In this document: positions 1,139-63,380 of the stretch, piece after piece
How positions within the stretch are numbered: position 1 is the stretch's first letter
How the letters are laid out: the number at the start of each line of letters is the position of its first letter
Source of the DNA: Bacillota bacterium
Lineage (GTDB): Bacteria > Bacillota > DSM-12270 > Thermacetogeniales > Thermacetogeniaceae
Assembly (NCBI GenBank): GCA_029907475.1
Contig: JARYLU010000002.1
Coordinates: forward strand, 62,001-126,000
Reading direction: 5' to 3'
DNA: 64,000 nt
Translations under genes and position numbers: made by a program
Notes under the pieces: model-generated
Databases searched by the model: none
Seen by the model: only the letters and a program-made list of their open reading frames with translations
Told to the model about the DNA's origin: nothing

Positions 1139-3952
1139 ATGGAATACAAGGAAACACTTAACCTGCCACGTACCGATTTTCCGATGCGGGCCAATTTGCC
1201 GCAGCGCGAGCCCGAAATTTTACGTTTTTGGGAGGAGGCCGGTCTTTACCAGGAAATTCAAAATTCTACCCAAGGGAGACCAAAATTTATTTTACATGAC
1301 GGCCCTCCTTATGCAAATGGCGATATTCATTTGGGTCATACTTTAAATAAAATTTTAAAAGATATAATTGTAAAGTACCGGACCATGACCGGGTATGATG
1401 CTCCCTACGTGCCAGGCTGGGATACCCACGGGTTGCCCATCGAACAGCAGGCGATTAAGGCCCTGGGGGTTGACCGCAACCAAGTAGATGTTTTAGAATT
1501 TCGCCGCCTCTGTAAAGAATACGCCCTGAAATACGTAAACGTGCAGCGGGAACAGTTTAAACGCCTGGGAGTACGGGGAGACTGGGAAAATCCTTATTTA
1601 ACCCTGGAGCCATCCTACGAAGCCGTACAAATTGGCATCTTTGGAGAAATGGCGAAACGCGGCTTTATTTATAAAGGGCTGAAACCTGTTTACTGGTGCG
1701 CGGATTGTGAAACAGCACTCGCGGAAGCGGAAGTAGAATACCAGGAAAAAGAATCTCCCTCTATTTATGTCTTGTTTCCGGTGAAGGAAAGCAGGGGGCT
1801 TTTCCCGCCCGATGATCGTACTTACATCCTGATCTGGACCACTACTCCCTGGACAATTCCCGGAAACACCGCGATCAGCTTGCACCCCGACTTTGACTAC
1901 GTTCTGGTTGAGGTTAACGGCATCAGAATTCTTGTTGCCGAAAAACTTTTGAATTCAGTCATCAGCATCAAGGGAAAAAAAGATGTCCCCGTGCTTGGTA
2001 TGTGGAAGGGGCACCAGTTGGAAGGAATCCGCTGCGCGCACCCCTTCTATGAACGGGATTCTCTTGTTGTTACGGGTGAGCATGTTAACCTGGACCAGGG
2101 TACCGGTGCGGTTCATACTGCTCCCGCCCACGGCATGGAAGACTTTGAGGTTTGCCAGGTGTATAACATTCCTGTTGTTTCGCTGGTAGATGGAAAAGGA
2201 ATGTTTATCTCCGAAGCGGGCCCCTTTGCCGGGATGAAGGTCTGGGATGCCAACAAGAGTATAATTAATGAATTAGCCAGGCGCGGTCTTTTGTACCACC
2301 AGGAAAACATTATCCACCAGTATCCCCATTGCTGGCGGTGTAAAGACCCGCTTCTTTTCCGGGCAACTGAACAGTGGTTTGCTTCGATTGATGGTTTCCG
2401 GAAAGAGGCCTTAAAGGTAATCGAAGAAGTGCAGTGGATCCCGGCGTGGGGGAAAGAGCGCATTTATAACATGGTGGCGGAGCGGGGAGACTGGTGTATT
2501 TCCCGCCAGCGCGTTTGGGGTGTGCCAATTCCTATCTTTTACTGCGATTATTGCCAGGCAACAATCATTAACGAGCAGACCATAAGCTGGCTGCAGGACC
2601 TCTTCCGCCGTTACGGTTCTGACGTATGGTTCGAGAAGAGTTCGGAGGAACTCTTGCCACCTGGTTTTTCCTGTCCCGACTGCGAAGGGAACAGGTTTCG
2701 AAGAGAGACGGATACGATGGACGTTTGGTTTGATTCCGGCTCCAGCCACGCTGCGGTTTTAGAGCAGCACCCTGAACTCAGGTGGCCCGCAGACCTGTAT
2801 CTTGAGGGGAGCGACCAGCACCGGGGTTGGTTTAATTCCTCCCTTTGCACTGCGGTTGCAACCCGGGGTGCCGCGCCTTACAGGGCTGTCCTGACGCACG
2901 GTTTTGTGGTGGATGAAGAGGGGCGGAAGATGTCTAAATCCCTGGGTAATGTCATCGATCCCCAGGATTTAATTAGAAAATTTGGGGCCGATATTTTAAG
3001 GCTCTGGGTTTCCTCGGCCGATTACCGCAGCGATGTCGCGGTCTCCCAAAACATCATGAACCAGCTTGCGGAGGTCTACCGGAAGATTCGCAACACCTTT
3101 CGCTTTATGCTGGGCAATCTTTATGATTTTGACCCTGCGCAAGATTGTATCCCTTACGAAGATCTGAGCCTGCTCGACAAGTGGGCGCTTTTGAAGCTGC
3201 ACCAGTTGATCCAGCGGGTAACCAGGGCTTACGAAACGTACGAGTTCCACATTGTTTACCATGCAATTTCCAACTTCTGTGTCGTAGATTTGAGTTCTTT
3301 TTACCTTGATGTGACGAAAGACACCTTGTATTGCTCCTACTCCTCAAACCGCGCGCGGCGCGGCATCCAGACCGTCTTTTACGAAACGGTCACTGTACTG
3401 GCACGCTTGCTGGCACCTGTTTTGAGTTTTACGGCGGAAGAAGTATGGGGTTATCTGCCGCAAGCAAAGGAGCGATTTTTCAGTGTTCACCTTGCTCCCT
3501 GGCCGCAAGTTAACCGGGGCTACTTAGATCCGGAACTTGAAGCAAAGTGGGAGCGAATCCTGAGCATCCGGGAGGAAATCACCAGGGCGCTCGAAGCGGC
3601 AAGACAACAGAAAATAATCGGCCCCTCTACCGAGGCATTTGTTTCCCTTTATCCCGAAAACGAGGAAACGGCAGCATTTTTGAAAGAAGTAGAAGCAGAC
3701 CTGGCAACTCTTTTGATTGTTTCCGGAATCGAGGTTCGCGAAGCTTGGGAAGCGGCACCTGTGGGCGCTTTTAGCATGGATGATGCTTATGCAATAAAAA
3801 TCTCGATTCAAAAGGCTCCGGGCCAGAAATGTACACGATGCTGGCTTTACCGCGAATCTGTAGGATTTTCGGGAGAGCACCCCACTTTATGTGAACGCTG
3901 TTACCAGGTAGTGAAACAGTACGAGACCCGGGTGGCAAGTTCAGAATTTTAG
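1139..3952 (+). CDS. ileS: Isoleucyl-tRNA synthetase
   Basis: Class I synthetase charging tRNA-Ile, 937 residues. The HIGH motif is HLGH near residue 65 and KMSKS lies near 597-601. The editing (CP1) domain sits between them. The C-terminus has a zinc site of two Cys pairs (CTRCW near 898 and CERC near 918), typical of the bacterial type with the C-terminal zinc finger. I prefer ATG 1139 over the GTG directly before it (1136) because GAGGTG at 1128-1133 is then properly spaced. Expression is controlled by the T-box upstream, and the ACT/UPF0210 pair follows 22 bases downstream. Confidence 0.97.
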
Positions 3953-11044: not shown

Positions 11045-11151
11045 AAGAGGTTCACCCTTTTAAAGCTAGTCCCGAGAGGCTAGAAAAGGGGTTCAGGGAA
11101 AGGAATAACCTCTTTGTCTGGCCTCGCAGGGTGATGACAAAGAGGTTTTTT
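11045..11151 (+). promoter_or_regulatory. PyrR attenuator 2 (between pyrR and pyrB)
   Basis: The PyrR stem-loop is GCTAGTCCCGAGAGGCTAG at about 11066-11084. The terminator is AACCTCTTTGTC (11107-11118) with GACAAAGAGGTT (11136-11147) and a T run. The antiterminator forms when AAAGAGGTT (about 11044-11052) pairs with AACCTCTTT (11107-11115), a perfect nine-base match. Three mutually exclusive folds can thus be read directly. Confidence 0.9.
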
Positions 11152-11179
11152 CATGGGGAAAAAGAGGGGGGAATAGGTT

Positions 11180-45544: not shown

Positions 45545-45770
45545 TAAAGGTTCCTTCGGGGGCAGGTGGAATTCCGCACCGGCGGTGATACCTTGCAGTG
45601 AGGTTAAGCCCGCGAGTCCAGCACTCAATGGTCAAGCATATCTTTCGAACCTCAGTTTTTTAAAAAATTTTAGCTCAAGTTTTTCTTCTTAAGTTACCCA
45701 TATTTGTGAGTGCTGGATTGATCCGGTGAGAATCCGGAGCCGACAGTTAAAGTCTGGAGGGGAGAGGGGA
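45545..45770 (+). promoter_or_regulatory. FMN riboswitch (RFN element) with a large internal insertion
   Basis: The conserved blocks read in order: TTCGGGGGCAGGTGGAATTCC, ACCGGCGGTGATA, AAGCCCGCGAGTCC, then GGATTGATCCGGTGAGAATCC, AGCCGACAGTTAAAGTCTGGA (each spanning the given core, 45554-45760). FMN binding stops expression of ribD-ribE-ribBA-ribH. The variable arm is unusually long: TCCAGCACTCA (45617-45627) pairs with TGAGTGCTGGA (45707-45717) and encloses a 79-base AT-rich loop. A terminator follows at 45802. Confidence 0.93.
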
Positions 45771-45801
45771 TCTCTTTTGTGTCTTGATCCTTTCCGAAAC
45801 C

Positions 45802-54494: not shown

Positions 54495-54758
54495 ATGGGT
54501 ACAGGTCAAAAGCGGAACAAGCTGCTTGTCCCGGAAGCGAATCAGGCAATGTACCAGTTTAAACACGAAATAGCCCGGGAAATCGGTATCGAAAATCAGA
54601 TCCAGGGTGGTTACTGGGGATACATTTCGTCCCGGGATTGCGGTGCCGTTGGAGGAAACATGGTTCGAAGGATGATCCAGACTGTTGAACAGTCCTTTGC
54701 ACAGCAGGGTAGCCCGGTTAACCTCACTACCAGAACCGGTCTCCAGCAGACGAGGTAA
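54495..54758 (+). CDS. Alpha/beta-type small acid-soluble spore protein
   Basis: 87 residues. The family core is clear: LLVPEANQAMYQFKHEIA, the germination-protease cleavage neighbourhood EIAREIGI near residue 30, and GAVGGNMVRRMIQ near 53-65. These proteins coat spore DNA and protect it from UV and heat, then are degraded on germination. ATG 54495 follows AAAGGAGGG. It is nearly identical over residues 1-65 to the next gene; the C-terminal tails differ. Confidence 0.95.
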   Translation: MGTGQKRNKLLVPEANQAMYQFKHEIAREIGIENQIQGGYWGYISSRDCGAVGGNMVRRMIQTVEQSFAQQGSPVNLTTRTGLQQTR

Positions 54759-54795: not shown

Positions 54796-55035
54796 ATGGG
54801 AACCGGTCAGAAAAGGAACCGCCTGCTCGTCCCTGAAGCTAACCAGGCCATGTATCAGTTCAAGTATGAACTGGCAAAAGAAATCGGTATCGAAAACCAA
54901 ATTCAGGGCGGATACTGGGGATATATTTCAGCCCGTGATTGTGGGGCGGTTGGGGGTAACATGGTACGGCGTATGATTCAGCAGTATGAGCAATCTTTAG
55001 CCGGACAGACCCCGCAACAAACACCCCAACTTTAA
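54796..55035 (+). CDS. Alpha/beta-type small acid-soluble spore protein (tandem paralogue)
   Basis: 79 residues, same core as the preceding gene (MGTGQKRNRLLVPEANQAMY, then ELAKEIGIENQIQGGYWG). The ribosome binding site AAAGGAGGGAT is also duplicated. Only 37 bases separate the genes, so they are probably co-transcribed. The copies differ at many synonymous positions, so the duplication is not very recent. A terminator follows. Confidence 0.95.
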   Translation: MGTGQKRNRLLVPEANQAMYQFKYELAKEIGIENQIQGGYWGYISARDCGAVGGNMVRRMIQQYEQSLAGQTPQQTPQL

Positions 55036-56890: not shown

Positions 56891-57813
56891 ATTTCATGTG
56901 GTTGCATACTTTTAATATCATTGTTGAAAAGAAAAGTTTAACAAAAGCAGCGCGGGCTTTACATTTAACCCAACCTGCAGTAAGCAAACAGCTTCGGGGC
57001 TTAGAGCTGTATTACGGAACACCTTTATTTCACCGGACGACCCGCGAAGTGGAACTTACAGAAGCAGGAAAAATCGTTTATGAACATAGCAGAAGGGTCA
57101 TGGAGATGATTCAGAAGAGCCGGGAGGAAGTCCAGGTTTTGACAAGTACCGTTCGGGGGGAGCTTTTGCTTGGAGCAAGTACGATTCCGGGTGAATATAT
57201 TTTACCCGGCATTATCGGGCCGTTTCAGCAGTGTTACCCGGAGGTCAAAGTCAGGTTAGAAATCGGTGACAGCAGGGAAGTTGCAAGTAAGGTTTTGGAG
57301 GGGGAATTTGAGCTTGGGGTTACTGGTATATTTTTTAAGAATCCGACACTTCGGCAAGAACTTTTTTTCGAAGATGAGCTGGTGGTGATTGTTCCCTGTA
57401 AACACAGGTTTGCCGGCAGAGAAAACATAGGGTTGGAGGAAGTTCTCGAAGAACCAATGGTAGCGCGGGAAAGCGGTTCTGGAACTCGAACCGTAGTCGA
57501 AGGTAAGTTTGCGGCCCTTGGCATATCCCCTGCGGCATTAAAGATTAAAATGGAGATGGGGAGTAACGAGGCTGTACTAAATGCGGTTGCAGCGGGCCAC
57601 GGAATTTCGCTGATTTCTCTTCTGGCAGCGCGACCGCGCGCTCAGGCCGGGAAAATATTTTATCTCCGGATCGCGGACCTTCCGCTGAAACGCCCGTTGT
57701 ATTTTATTACCAGGAAAAACCGCGAGTCAAGTGTGCTCTTAAAAACCTTTCTCACTTTTGTAAAAAATAATCTGAAACAATTTTCCCAGGATCAGCAGGA
57801 ATTATTGAAATAG
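56887..57813 (+). CDS. LysR-family transcriptional regulator
   Basis: 308 residues. A winged helix-turn-helix covers residues 1-60 with AARALHLTQPAVSKQLRGLE (residues 21-40), and a two-lobed effector domain follows from about 88. It resembles the CysL/CbbR group. Effector and target are not apparent. It is translationally coupled with the glycosylase. The Ni/Co cluster downstream has its own promoter, so it is only possibly a target. Confidence 0.9.
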   Translation: MNFMWLHTFNIIVEKKSLTKAARALHLTQPAVSKQLRGLELYYGTPLFHRTTREVELTEAGKIVYEHSRRVMEMIQKSREEVQVLTSTVRGELLLGASTIPGEYILPGIIGPFQQCYPEVKVRLEIGDSREVASKVLEGEFELGVTGIFFKNPTLRQELFFEDELVVIVPCKHRFAGRENIGLEEVLEEPMVARESGSGTRTVVEGKFAALGISPAALKIKMEMGSNEAVLNAVAAGHGISLISLLAARPRAQAGKIFYLRIADLPLKRPLYFITRKNRESSVLLKTFLTFVKNNLKQFSQDQQELLK

Positions 57814-57833
57814 GAGAGAATATGTGATATGAT
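57805..57833 (+). promoter_or_regulatory. Sigma-A promoter of the cbiM cluster
   Basis: TTGAAA (57805-57810) and TATGAT (57828-57833) lie 17 bases apart. Transcription from about 57840 would start roughly 13 bases before the attenuator element at 57853. Confidence 0.75.
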
Positions 57834-57852
57834 AAATAAAAAAGGTTTGGAG

Positions 57853-57918
57853 ATGGGACCACGGAGGTTCCCTTGATCCTGCAGAAGCAGGACGGGATTC
57901 GTGGTTTTTTGTTTTTTT
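57853..57918 (+). promoter_or_regulatory. Attenuator element copy 1 (leader of cbiM)
   Basis: Fold A: GGGACC (57855-57860) pairs with GGTTCC (57866-57871) around loop ACGGA. Fold B: ACCACGGA (57858-57865) pairs with TTCGTGGT (57898-57905), enclosing a CCTGC/GCAGG hairpin, followed by a T run, an intrinsic terminator. The two cannot coexist. The same layout recurs at 59673, 60158 and 63266. The ATG at 57853 also opens a seven-codon frame. The signal that chooses the fold is unknown. Confidence 0.75.
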
Positions 57919-58002: not shown

Positions 58003-58641
58003 ATGCACATACCCGACGGGCTCCTTGATGCCAAAACCTGGGGAACCGCTTGGGTTTTAGGGGGGGCGGCGCTTGCTTATGGCGCCACCAAAACCAGAGA
58101 AAGGCTGCAAGAACGCCAGGTTCCTTTTATGGGGGTAATGGCTGCCTTTATTTTTGCGGCCCAGATGGTTAATTTTCCCATTGCCGGTGGTACTTCAGGC
58201 CATCTTTTAGGTGCTGTTTTAGCCGCCATTCTCCTGGGCCCCTGGACGGCGAGCATTATCATGGCTACCATTCTCGCTTTGCAGGCCTTTGTTTTCCTGG
58301 ATGGCGGAGTTACCGCATTGGGAGCAAATATCTTGAATATGGCCGTGGTCGCTCCTTTTGCGGGTTACTGGACCTACCGGTTAATTCAGCGGGTTTGGAA
58401 TAACCGTACAGGAACCCTTGTAGCTACCTTTAGCGCGGCCTGGTTTTCAGTAGTCCTTGCAGCAGGGGCTTGCGCCTTTGAGCTTGCCTTTTCCGGAATG
58501 GTTCCCCTGCGTGTTGTACTTCCTGCCATGCTTGGCTGGCACGTGCTCATCGGGATTGGGGAAGCTGTAATTACAACAGTTGTGGTTGGTTATTTAACCC
58601 AGGTACGAGCCGACCTGGTATACGAAACTGCTAAGGTGTAA
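58003..58641 (+). CDS. cbiM: CbiM/NikM-type cobalt or nickel ECF transporter substrate component
   Basis: 212 residues with six or so membrane helices. The N-terminus MHIPDGLL places the metal-binding His2 exactly as in CbiM and NikM, where the amino group and His2 chelate Ni2+ or Co2+. The conserved HLLGAVLAAILLGPW segment lies near residue 67. ATG 58003 follows GACAGGAGG. The next gene is CbiN-like, but no CbiQ or CbiO gene follows. The neighbouring cooT suggests nickel, which is inference. Confidence 0.92.
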   Translation: MHIPDGLLDAKTWGTAWVLGGAALAYGATKTRERLQERQVPFMGVMAAFIFAAQMVNFPIAGGTSGHLLGAVLAAILLGPWTASIIMATILALQAFVFLDGGVTALGANILNMAVVAPFAGYWTYRLIQRVWNNRTGTLVATFSAAWFSVVLAAGACAFELAFSGMVPLRVVLPAMLGWHVLIGIGEAVITTVVVGYLTQVRADLVYETAKV

Positions 58642-58655
58642 GCGGGGTGAAGATA

Positions 58656-58985
58656 ATGCGAAAAGAGGTCTGGATTTTGCTCATACTGGCGGTATTAATC
58701 GCTTTGTTCTTGAGCCCTTTTGCTTCACCTTTTCCCGATGGACTGGAAAGGGTGGCCGAAGATAAGGGATTTCTGGAAAAAAGCGAAGGAAAAGAAATAA
58801 TTAACTCTCCAATTCCCGATTACATTTTTCCAGGCATTACCAATGAAAAGGTAGCAACGGCAGTGGCGGGAATTGTTGGGACACTTCTTACCTTAACCGT
58901 TGCGTACGGGATCGCTGTCTTGATTAAAGGCCGCGCGGCATCAAAACAGGAGATCCAGGAACGGCATGAACAGGTTAGCAGTTAA
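58656..58985 (+). CDS. PDGLE-domain protein (CbiN/NikN-like)
   Basis: About 109 residues with two membrane helices (about 4-20 and 62-85). The FPDGLERVAED motif between them defines the PDGLE domain, which in many genomes is either a stand-alone CbiN-like subunit or fused to CbiM. It probably forms the metal-entry complex with CbiM. I prefer ATG 58656 to the in-frame GTG 58647; the difference is three residues. Confidence 0.85.
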   Translation: MRKEVWILLILAVLIALFLSPFASPFPDGLERVAEDKGFLEKSEGKEIINSPIPDYIFPGITNEKVATAVAGIVGTLLTLTVAYGIAVLIKGRAASKQEIQERHEQVSS

Positions 58986-58997
58986 CAGGGTGAGATG

Positions 58998-59414
58998 ATG
59001 AAAATTGCGGTAGTTGACGGTCAGGGGGGCGGGATAGGCCGGGTCATTACCGAGCAGATCAGGAAGGCGCTTTCCCCTGAAGTAGAGATTATCGCCCTGG
59101 GCACCAATGCGATAGCTACTTCTTTAATGCTGAGGGCCGGGGCGAACGAAGGCGCCAGCGGAGAAAATGCAATAGTTCAAAATGCAGGAGATGTTGATGT
59201 AATTGTCGGGCCTTTAGGTATTATCCTCGCTCACTCAATGCGAGGTGAACTTACAGCGGGAATGGCTGAAGCCATTGCAAAAAGCAAAGCCATTAAAATC
59301 TTATTACCTTTAACCCTTGCCCAGGTCGAAGTGGTGGGGGTGGAACTTGAACCTCTACCCCACCTGGTGGAAAAGCTTGTTGCCAGGTTAAAAGAAATGA
59401 CGGAGGTGAAGTAA
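58998..59414 (+). CDS. DUF3842 family protein
   Basis: About 138 residues starting MKIAVVDGQGGGIGR, a glycine-rich nucleotide- or cofactor-binding-like strand-turn. It is soluble with no membrane segment. DUF3842 genes recur beside CbiM and CooT genes in anaerobes, which suggests a part in nickel or cobalt handling; no function is established. ATG 58998 with GGTGAG is preferred to the ATG one codon earlier. Confidence 0.8.
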   Translation: MKIAVVDGQGGGIGRVITEQIRKALSPEVEIIALGTNAIATSLMLRAGANEGASGENAIVQNAGDVDVIVGPLGIILAHSMRGELTAGMAEAIAKSKAIKILLPLTLAQVEVVGVELEPLPHLVEKLVARLKEMTEVK

Positions 59415-59416
59415 AA

Positions 59417-59617
59417 GTGTGTGAGGCTCATGCTTACTTGCGCAAAGGTGAACAAGATGAGCTTTTTTTCGAAAACGTGGACCGGGTCCAGCCTCACGAA
59501 CAGGGGCTGCTCCTTGAGAACATCTTTGGCCAGCGCAAGATTATCAAGGCACGGATTAAGGAACTTGCCCTGGTAGATCACAAGATTATCTTGGAACAGG
59601 ATTTGAAAGAGGATTAA
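59417..59617 (+). CDS. cooT: CooT-family nickel-binding protein
   Basis: 66 residues. MCEAHAY at the N-terminus contains the conserved Cys2 that binds Ni2+ in CooT, followed by the small SH3-like barrel that ends VDHKIILEQ. CooT helps nickel delivery to CO dehydrogenase in Rhodospirillum. GTG start 59417 lies two bases after the DUF3842 stop, so the four genes form one unit. Confidence 0.88.
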   Translation: MCEAHAYLRKGEQDELFFENVDRVQPHEQGLLLENIFGQRKIIKARIKELALVDHKIILEQDLKED

Positions 59618-59672
59618 ATCTATCCAGAAAGCATCTCAAGAAAAAAAGTGGCATAGTCTTTATATCAGGCGA

Positions 59673-59733
59673 ATGAGACCGTGGAGGTTTCGGATGGCTC
59701 GCAGGGAGTGGGCCCTAACCACGGTCTTTTTTT
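59673..59733 (+). promoter_or_regulatory. Attenuator element copy 2 (no gene downstream on its strand)
   Basis: Fold A: GAGACC (59675-59680) pairs with GGTTTC (59686-59691) around loop GTGGA. Fold B: AGACCGTGG (59676-59684) pairs with CCACGGTCT (59719-59727), followed by seven T. It lies 55 bases after cooT, so it may end that transcript. A weak -10-like TATATC (59661-59666) is close upstream. The next plus-strand gene is the diguanylate cyclase, which has its own copy. Confidence 0.65.
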
Positions 59734-60087: not shown

Positions 60088-60157
60088 TTGAATACCTCCC
60101 ATTTCTAAGATTTTTATTTAATTTTAATATGCACAAGAACCTCTATATTTATTAAAA

Positions 60158-60208
60158 ATGGACCATGAAGGTCTTAAAAGGCTTCATGGTCTATTGATTT
60201 TAATTTTT
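60158..60208 (+). promoter_or_regulatory. Attenuator element copy 3 (leader of the diguanylate cyclase)
   Basis: Fold A: GGACC (60160-60164) pairs with GGTCT (60170-60174) around loop ATGAA. Fold B: GACCATGAAG (60161-60170) pairs perfectly with CTTCATGGTC (60182-60191), followed by a T-rich tract to 60208. A -10-like TATATT (60144-60149) lies just upstream. The ATG at 60158 that opens the long reading frame is thus part of this RNA, not a convincing start codon. Confidence 0.65.
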
Positions 60209-60304: not shown

Positions 60305-61921
60305 TTGCGCTTTTCTCTGAGCCAGCTTTTAACACGGTGGTTTCTCGTGTTCGCCTTGCTGCCCGCAGCAGTCCTGGGATATGCGTCCTTCAGGTACACC
60401 CTGGTCACCGCCGAGTATTTCTCCTCCCAGATCTTGCAGGTCGTCTGCCAGAAGGAGGCAGAAGTCGTGGCTCGCTGGCTGAGCGCCGCGGTCGACAGGA
60501 CCCGGGAGGAGGCTGAAGAGGCTGCTTTGGGAGAAACCCCGACCGGCCCTGAGCTTCTCTCGGTGTACCGGAGGATTGCCGGGTGCAGGTCTCTGGCGTT
60601 TGCCGGGAGCAGCGGAAGGATCGTAGTTGTCCCGGTCTCAGACGCACCCGCGCCACTCGAAGAGATAGCGCGGACGGTAGCTGCTCTCAGGAAGTCTGGC
60701 CGTCCCCGTTTTTTTCTCCTCGACCCGCCGCGGAGAAGCATTCAACTGGTTTTCCCGGTAGGGACGGGGTTCTTGTGGGTCGATTTCGACGCCCGCCCCC
60801 TGGAGGCTCTTCTCCGACCGGTGGTGGTGGGAAGGGCTGCCGCCGGCCCCGGCCTTAATCTGAAAAGTTCTTTTGAAAAGCTTCTCGGGTTCCACTTCGG
60901 CTATCACCCCCAGTTGCCCGAGCCCGGCGCCATCAGGTCTTACCTGCTGGCTGAAGGAGGCGCGCTCGGCCCGGGGGCGGGTTCCTTCAACCCGGAAACC
61001 GCAAATTTGATCAAGAAGCAGGAGCCTGCACCTGTGAGTTACACAAATCAACTCGGAGAAAAAGTTCTTGCGGTGGGGAAGCCGCTTCCGGACAGCGATT
61101 TCGTACTTGTGGTGGAGGCGCAAAAAAGTGAGATCACCCGGGGAGTTTCCTCCCAAGGGTTTAACATGGTCTTCCTGGCTATTTTTTTAACCTTGATGCT
61201 GAGCCTTCCCTTGAGCACCCTCGTCACGCGGAAGATAACAGAACCCCTGCGCCGGTTGGCCGGAGAGGCGAGGAAGATCGCGGGCGGAGAATTCGGGCAC
61301 CGGGTCGAGAGCGACTGTCCCGGCGAAATCGGGCTTCTCGCCGACACCTTCAACGAGATGTCCCTGCGCCTCAAAGACTCCTACGCAAGGCTTAAAGAAA
61401 TGGCCTACAACGACGAGCTGACCGGGGTTTACAACCGGCGCTTTCTGCTGGAGCGGGCGCGGGAAGAGCTGGCGCGGGCGCAGAGAACAGGGCGGCCTCT
61501 TGGTGTGGTGATGGTGGACGTGGACAACTTTAAAACCGTCAACGACTCTTTCGGCCACTCCTGCGGGGACACCGTGCTGCGGGAGGTGGCCGGGGTCTTA
61601 AAGGAAACGGCGCGCGCTTCGGATGTGGTCGGCCGCTACGGGGGAGACGAGTTCGTCGTCATCCTGCCGGAAACAGGTAAGACGGGCTCCCTCTCCTTTT
61701 GCGAGCGCGTCCTGGCGGCGCTGCAGGGCCGTTCGTTTGACGGCGGGAGGGTCAGGGCGAAGGTGAGCATGGGGGTTTCCGTTTGGGAGCCCGAACGAGG
61801 CCCTGTAGCTGACCCCGACCGGCAGCTCAACAGGCTCCTTCAAGAGGCGGACGACGCCCTGCTGGAGGCAAAACGAGGGGGGCGTGGGCGCGCCGCTGCT
61901 TACACCCAGGATCAGGAGTGA
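60305..61921 (+). CDS. Membrane-bound diguanylate cyclase (sensor-HAMP-GGDEF)
   Basis: 538 residues from TTG 60305: a membrane helix (about 9-28), an extracellular sensor domain of about 255 residues resembling double-CACHE modules, a second helix (about 288-306), HAMP (about 307-360) and a GGDEF domain with an intact active site at 446-450. RASD at 437-440 is a product-inhibition I-site. It should make cyclic di-GMP in response to an outside signal. The frame is open to ATG 60158, but those bases hold an AT-rich attenuator and lack a ribosome binding site; GGGGTCGAGG precedes the TTG. The gene is richer in G+C than its neighbours. Confidence 0.9.
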   Translation: MRFSLSQLLTRWFLVFALLPAAVLGYASFRYTLVTAEYFSSQILQVVCQKEAEVVARWLSAAVDRTREEAEEAALGETPTGPELLSVYRRIAGCRSLAFAGSSGRIVVVPVSDAPAPLEEIARTVAALRKSGRPRFFLLDPPRRSIQLVFPVGTGFLWVDFDARPLEALLRPVVVGRAAAGPGLNLKSSFEKLLGFHFGYHPQLPEPGAIRSYLLAEGGALGPGAGSFNPETANLIKKQEPAPVSYTNQLGEKVLAVGKPLPDSDFVLVVEAQKSEITRGVSSQGFNMVFLAIFLTLMLSLPLSTLVTRKITEPLRRLAGEARKIAGGEFGHRVESDCPGEIGLLADTFNEMSLRLKDSYARLKEMAYNDELTGVYNRRFLLERAREELARAQRTGRPLGVVMVDVDNFKTVNDSFGHSCGDTVLREVAGVLKETARASDVVGRYGGDEFVVILPETGKTGSLSFCERVLAALQGRSFDGGRVRAKVSMGVSVWEPERGPVADPDRQLNRLLQEADDALLEAKRGGRGRAAAYTQDQE

Positions 61922-63094: not shown

Positions 63095-63156
63095 TTCGCC
63101 CTACTGAGGCAAAACGAGGAGGGCGCGGGCGTGCTGCTGTTCACACCCAGGAGTGA
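63095..63156 (+). pseudogene. Remnant of a second diguanylate cyclase C-terminus
   Basis: Bases 63106-63156 encode EAKRGGRGRAAVHTQE then a stop, almost the same as the end of the intact cyclase (EAKRGGRGRAAAYTQDQE). Upstream CGCCCTACT matches the cyclase codons for ALL with one base missing. No GGDEF motif remains. The preceding bases 62952-63094 hold nothing I recognise beyond a short open stretch ending RYEGLIEAERK. Confidence 0.75.
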
Positions 63157-63265
63157 ATAATTTTTTGGCGCGCAGGCAGGAATTTGTTAACCCGTGTCGA
63201 ATATGGTAAATTGTCAAAATAATAACCCCAAAAGTTGCTGTGGGGAAAGTAAAGACGGATGCGCA

Positions 63266-63326
63266 ATGCAACCACGAAGGTTGCCCCCCACCGAAAGGAG
63301 GGATTTTCCTTCGTGGTTTTCTTTTT
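63266..63326 (+). promoter_or_regulatory. Attenuator element copy 4 (leader of the ABC binding protein)
   Basis: Fold A: GCAACC (63268-63273) pairs perfectly with GGTTGC (63279-63284) around loop ACGAA. Fold B: AACCACGAAGG (63270-63280) pairs perfectly with CCTTCGTGGTT (63308-63318), followed by a T-rich run. A separate hairpin CCCCA/TGGGG lies just upstream (about 63226-63245). The gene start is 55 bases after the terminator. Confidence 0.75.
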
Positions 63327-63380
63327 GCCCGGAAATTGAAAATCAAAAATCCTTGAACAGGTGAGGAAGGGGTGACCGGT

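Follow-up and report, generated by a model that had tools for sequence, protein, structure and literature searches.

A candidate attenuator ahead of cbiM belongs to a cross-phylum RNA family associated with nickel and cobalt genes and may be read by a DUF3842-CooT module

All coordinates refer to the window, that is, the whole 64,000-nt stretch of DNA that was analysed. Known RNA elements were found at gathering score (a T-box leader at 867-1088, a PyrR binding site at 11053-11154 and an FMN riboswitch at 45548-45773); the window also carries a small ORF duplicated in tandem, similar to SASP by eye (54495-54700 and 54796-55001, 75% identity), and a 47-base repeat (61865-61911 and 63106-63152, 87% identity). 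The element described here precedes an operon of cbiM, PDGLE, DUF3842 and cooT. Bit scores were obtained with two covariance models, R1 and R2, built from alignments of 37 and 90 elements, respectively. The features are as follows:

57805..57833, plus strand: candidate sigma-A promoter, with TTGAAA, a 17-base spacer and a TG-extended TATGAT (consensus scan, 10/12)
57852..57913, plus strand: copy 1, whole element (R1 64.7 bits, R2 57.3 bits; copy 1 is in both training sets, and the pattern evidence is independent)
57855..57871, plus strand: P1 (fold A), GGGACC, loop ACGGA, GGTTCC (6 pairs, -7.4 kcal/mol; covariation)
57858..57910, plus strand: fold B, the intrinsic terminator, ACCACG (57858-57863) with CGTGGT (57900-57905), then a U-tract (folding, covariation)
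57877..57892, plus strand: P2, the inner hairpin, TCCTGC, loop AGAA, GCAGGA (folding)
58003..58641, plus strand: cbiM, the first gene behind copy 1 (Pfam PF01891, E 1e-66)
58647..58985, plus strand: PDGLE-domain gene in a cbiN-like position (Pfam PF13190, E 2.9e-22)
58995..59414, plus strand: DUF3842 gene, candidate regulator (Pfam PF12953, E 2.7e-53; co-occurrence)
59418..59618, plus strand: cooT, about 66 aa from a GTG start, candidate for nickel sensing or RNA binding (PF10133, E 1.6e-25, with a query differing at a few residues; the exact ORF occurs in L026 and at C2:121420 of the genome)
59672..59733, plus strand: copy 2, after cooT (R1 40.1 bits, R2 35.0 bits)
63265..63325, plus strand: copy 3, P1 loop ACGAA (R1 33.4 bits, outside the R1 training set; R2 50.8 bits)

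The letters of copy 1 (57852-57913) are GATGGGACCACGGAGGTTCCCTTGATCCTGCAGAAGCAGGACGGGATTCGTGGTTTTTTGTT. The first-pass annotation had placed this copy ahead of cbiM, where it indeed lies, and its coordinates for the parts of the element were correct to within a few bases. Copy 2 has the P1 loop GTGGA and terminator arms altered to match (GTG/CAC); no same-strand gene follows it closely in the window, where it may serve as a regulated 3' end, and three relatives (L016, L024, L033) retain the GTG/CAC variant after cooT, ahead of other genes. Copy 3 precedes the gene of a Peripla_BP_2 (PF01497) periplasmic metal/cofactor-binding protein, which starts at 63372 and runs off the window. At 60156-60198, the very start of the reading frame of a GGDEF gene, R2 gave a weak match (24.3 bits, E 3e-4), which could be a decayed copy or a chance hit.

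In fold A, the arms of P1 (57855-57860 and 57866-57871) form the ACC/GGT stem under the loop ACGGA; P2 (arms 57877-57882 and 57887-57892) is compatible with fold A and with fold B. The ACCACG strand of fold B is made up of half of the P1 5' strand and the first letters of the P1 loop, and the two folds are mutually exclusive. The terminator can be written ACCACG/CGTGGT-U6, and T-rich DNA continues after its second arm up to 57918. Fold B was the minimum free energy form of the 60-nt element (-26.9 kcal/mol, z = -4.15), and 0 of 200 shuffles were as stable. When the nascent chain of copy 1 was folded at increasing lengths, P1 was present by 32 bases, P1 and P2 together reached -21.3, and fold B took over at 64-68 bases; the terminator thus beats P1 plus P2 once the last 8 or so bases emerge (one-strand folding). 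This layout is that of an attenuator, in which a terminator hairpin with its U-tract excludes an alternative hairpin, here one backed by covariation.

The putative promoter at 57805-57833 fits the consensus well and ranks among the two best of 7 sites in the 3.4 kb scanned (shuffles give 3.3), and from it a start point near 57840 is predicted. Upstream of 124 homologues, consensus promoters numbered 17 against a shuffle mean of 12.8, which is not clearly above shuffles, and a very short, promoter-proximal leader was therefore not retained as a trait of the family. A leader peptide after GGAGGT, which looks like a Shine-Dalgarno sequence, was also considered and rejected, since several copies inspected by eye had no properly spaced start codon.

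For detection of homologues, the loose pattern GACCNNGGAGGT...GGTNTTT was searched and found at 20 places in 11 of the 20 family genomes, against 1 place for the reversed control pattern. A strict pattern yielded 44 stretches in public genomes; on sight, four (L036, L049, L077 and L078) were set aside as chance. With R1, the element was found in 58 of 300 Bacillota genomes and in 24 of 148 genomes of the deltaproteobacterial phylum; with R2, it was found in 83 of the 300 Bacillota genomes, with up to 18 copies per genome, the number carried by the source genome of the window. Two Actinomycetota records (L054, L066) carry it as well. Elements also occur two or three in a row (L044, at 1989-2046, 3055-3112 and 3122-3172; L073; L144; L035; L126), and the genomes with such tandems are mostly of Syntrophaceae type. 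The family is absent from Rfam 15: the element matched no Rfam family at gathering or permissive thresholds, nor did nine divergent loci, and no description of it was found in the open-access papers searched.

Both folds were assessed in 90 aligned elements. The P1 consensus is nnnRCC[RYGRA]GGYnnn, in which the covarying pairs flank invariant CC/GG: pair 6-18 was GC in 35 elements, AU in 29, GU in 12, UA in 5 and CG in 1, and pair 7-17 was AU in 65, GU in 13 and GC in 11. Among the terminator-arm pairs, 10-56 was AU in 86 and GC in 4, 11-55 was CG in 69, UA in 14 and UG in 7, and 13-53 was AU in 49, GC in 18 and GU in 18. P1 and the terminator each scored above all 500 column shuffles (percent paired and covariation score) and above all slid versions; because the members are related and the models that found them favour these letters, the strength of the covariation signal is uncertain, though its existence is not. 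Together with the pattern counts against the reversed control, these shuffles place the copy 1 element beyond chance. The two-fold switch claimed in the first-pass annotation was upheld by the folding and by the covariation of both folds across the 90 homologues, and the weight given there to the ACC/GGT stem was supported as well.

The five-base P1 loop was RYGRA in 122 of 125 elements (ACGAA 52, ACGGA 38, ATGAA 15, ATGGA 10, GCGAA 5, GTGGA 2), although G at position 3 and A at position 5 were demanded by the loop test and are thus partly imposed. P1 loop conservation exceeds what the terminator needs. The P2 loop often resembles the P1 loop, being NGAA or, in certain copies, ACGAA/GTGAA; this points to a pair of like sites that a dimer might occupy. 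The covariation and the loops bear on the simplest rival explanation, that the element is a plain terminator, serving the LysR gene upstream as well as the cooT operon, which has spread as a repeat and does not switch. The hairpin is strong by itself and lies about 40 bases after the LysR stop codon, and copy 2 follows cooT, where a plain terminator would do; but P1 covaries though a terminator has no need of it, the loop letters are kept across phyla, and nickel/cobalt genes consistently follow. A plain terminator is therefore considered very improbable.

The genes behind the elements were classified from 98 nonredundant first downstream proteins, among which Pfam matches were to CbiM (13), TonB receptor plug (13), SBP_bac_5 (10), DUF4198 (9), methyltransferase (8), DUF3842 (6), ZnuA (4), CooT (4), BPD_transp (4) and PDGLE (3). 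All ten SBP_bac_5 proteins hit the NCBIfam model for nickel NikA, along with other models from the same superfamily. One element (L205) is followed by LarC-CbiMNQO, LarC being named by eye, and the copies of the source genome precede cbiM, nikB/nikC-type permeases, several SBP_bac_5 genes, DUF4198 and Peripla_BP_2 genes. Judged by these gene contents, the predicted regulon is one of transition-metal uptake and handling, chiefly of nickel and cobalt, in several bacterial phyla. The nickel/cobalt link drawn in the first-pass annotation is stronger than could be known from the window, because homologues across phyla precede nickel/cobalt genes. The methyltransferase that recurs as first gene (L102, L023, L128, L142 and others) is of class I and might act in metallophore formation or metal handling. 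Elements stand directly before cooT in L175, L176 and L177, and in the CooT-less L204 one element adjoins a DUF3842 gene. In L171, L172, L173 and L181, CooT forms an in-frame fusion with a longer C-terminal part, DUF4198/NikK-like by eye, that has a histidine run; a DUF3842 gene is nearby.

The nickel/cobalt genes raise the question of direct metal sensing. NiCo (czcD) riboswitches are four-way junctions, and like the element they are leader RNAs tied to nickel and cobalt; unlike them, the element is a short one- or two-hairpin structure and gave no covariance match to this class at gathering or permissive thresholds. As a rival explanation, the RNA itself would bind nickel or cobalt, favouring the terminator, and no protein would be needed. 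The tight link to nickel/cobalt genes, the conserved loop letters and the existence of element genomes with neither CooT nor DUF3842 (G021 and G047) speak for such a riboswitch; set against this are the lack of a further conserved core beyond one or two short hairpins, the lack of a match to the NiCo riboswitch or any Rfam family, and the way the element depends strongly on two particular proteins being present. We regard it as improbable.

Several other known systems were compared. ANTAR dual-hairpin antiterminators resemble the element in having two small conserved-loop hairpins, one of which is exclusive with an intrinsic terminator, and in their multi-copy regulons; there a dimeric protein binds and prevents termination, which was counted as a likeness, protein binding at the element being a proposal. 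The ANTAR targets of EutV, NasR and AmiR have two hairpins with hexaloops carrying A at position 1 and G at position 4 (PMC3369931), and P2 overlaps the terminator, whereas here P1 does so and has the five-base RYGRA loop. An ANTAR target was rejected on loop length and letters. NikR operators likewise control nickel uptake genes in deltaproteobacteria, and are DNA inverted repeats, GTGTTAC-N13/14-GTAACAC (PMC545781); the covarying pairs of the element instead lie within transcribed RNA that ends in a terminator. The TwoAYGGAY RNA motif of Clostridiales recalls, by its name (two AYGGAY sites), the AYGGA loops of part of the family (PMC2864571). It was rated not cis-regulatory, and nickel, cobalt and cbiM do not appear in the main text of that paper (Weinberg 2010, PMC2864571); the element is set apart from it solely by this published description. 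CsrA/RsmE binding hairpins share GGA in a small hairpin loop with 50 of 122 elements; a CsrA target was rejected, as the other 72 have GAA and the loop has five bases, and CsrA is for that reason also unlikely as a trans-acting factor.

For the search of a possible regulator, CooT (PF10133), DUF3842 (PF12953) and the CO dehydrogenase (CODH) catalytic subunit (TIGR01702) were compared in the same genomes. CooT and DUF3842 were counted in six-frame searches of genomes that are in part incomplete, and since related genomes are not independent, kinship is addressed by the family-level test alone. Among Bacillota, CooT was present in 50 of the 58 R1 element genomes against 91 of 300 overall (p 2e-23; p 8e-18 without the window's own family; p 4e-8 at family level). 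The 83 R2 element genomes contained CooT in 66 cases, DUF3842 in 79 and CODH in 62. When Bacillota were stratified, the association of CooT with the element persisted inside both CODH-positive and CODH-negative genomes, and that of CODH was absent inside both CooT-positive and CooT-negative genomes; DUF3842 was still associated inside CooT-negative genomes (14/17, p 2e-7), and CooT inside DUF3842-positive genomes (p 4e-8). A CODH lifestyle as cause of the co-occurrence was thus rejected, CODH adding nothing once CooT is known. In the deltaproteobacterial phylum, CooT was found in 24 of 24 element genomes (11 of them without CODH) against 85 of 148 overall, and DUF3842 in all 9 element genomes tested, adjoining cooT in every one. 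Clear elements with neither CooT nor DUF3842 found were seen in G021 (L126, L207, L208) and G047 (L180), possibly through an assembly gap over the adjacent cooT-DUF3842 pair; a weak CooT match in G021 (19.9 bits) fell short of the family cut-off and was discarded, the 103-aa ORF that contains it being unlike CooT. Conversely, 25 CooT-positive Bacillota genomes had no element even with R2.

The co-occurrence could also arise if the element were an attenuator worked by another, unlinked trans-acting protein, with CooT and DUF3842 belonging to the regulon just as a nickel chaperone and the partner of that chaperone. Because elements stand before CooT and DUF3842 genes themselves, regulon membership is enough for part of the co-occurrence, and elements also occur in G021 and G047, where neither gene was found. 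Yet the association holds where the elements lie elsewhere in the genome (before TonB receptor and DUF4198 genes, in the deltaproteobacterial phylum) and where CODH is absent, the element being present in 11 of 15 CODH-less genomes of that phylum with CooT and in 0 of 46 without. An unlinked factor is considered unlikely. The first-pass annotation had named metal or protein as the signal; of the two, the co-occurrence leans towards protein.

The structural model of CooT was its known beta-barrel (6fan, 5n76), with 2qgg, presumably RimM-like, as a weak next non-CooT neighbour. DUF3842 was modelled as a Rossmann-like domain and had no strong structural match. CooT is a dimer that binds one nickel with a Kd of 9 nM, and cooT mutants of R. 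rubrum require extra nickel on CO (PMC6006190). The one CooT knockout with proteomics that was found is of C. autoethanogenum, and the main text reports no nickel transporter changes (PMC10230548); this deletion does not decide the matter, as nickel transporters are absent from the main-text discussion. In the open-access literature, neither a paper on DUF3842 by name nor a published test of RNA binding by CooT was found.

The element, its competing folds, its regulon and the co-occurrence were computed here. On these grounds copy 1 is taken, with moderate confidence, to be an attenuator and a protein-stabilised antiterminator of a nickel/cobalt regulon, whose putative regulator lies in the DUF3842-CooT module. 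RNA polymerase would start just upstream of copy 1, and the nascent RNA would first form P1, with its RYGRA loop, and P2. Unaided, the terminator arm would displace P1 and transcription would stop before cbiM. Under metal shortage, a regulatory protein would hold P1 and probably also P2 (the loops of the two are often alike), so that the terminator would not form and cbiM-PDGLE-DUF3842-cooT would be made. CooT would be the nickel sensor, and either DUF3842 or CooT would contact the RNA. With its regulator in this module, the operon would control its own regulator. That the DUF3842-CooT pair is a new nickel-responsive RNA-binding antiterminator, acting on the cross-phylum nickel/cobalt regulon via RYGRA hairpins, is advanced more tentatively, as a proposal that may hold.

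Both the RNA family and its proposed regulator would be novel; the element would work like a protein-dependent antiterminator. The prediction is that CooT and/or DUF3842 bind P1/P2 RNA in a nickel-dependent manner, and copy 1 is a compact template for testing such binding. If true, nickel/cobalt uptake would be under the control of a widespread family of RNA attenuators in many acetogens, syntrophs and sulfate reducers. Functions would be suggested for DUF3842, and for CooT in genomes without CO dehydrogenase, and CooT would be a nickel sensor for gene control, beyond its part as a maturation factor of CO dehydrogenase.
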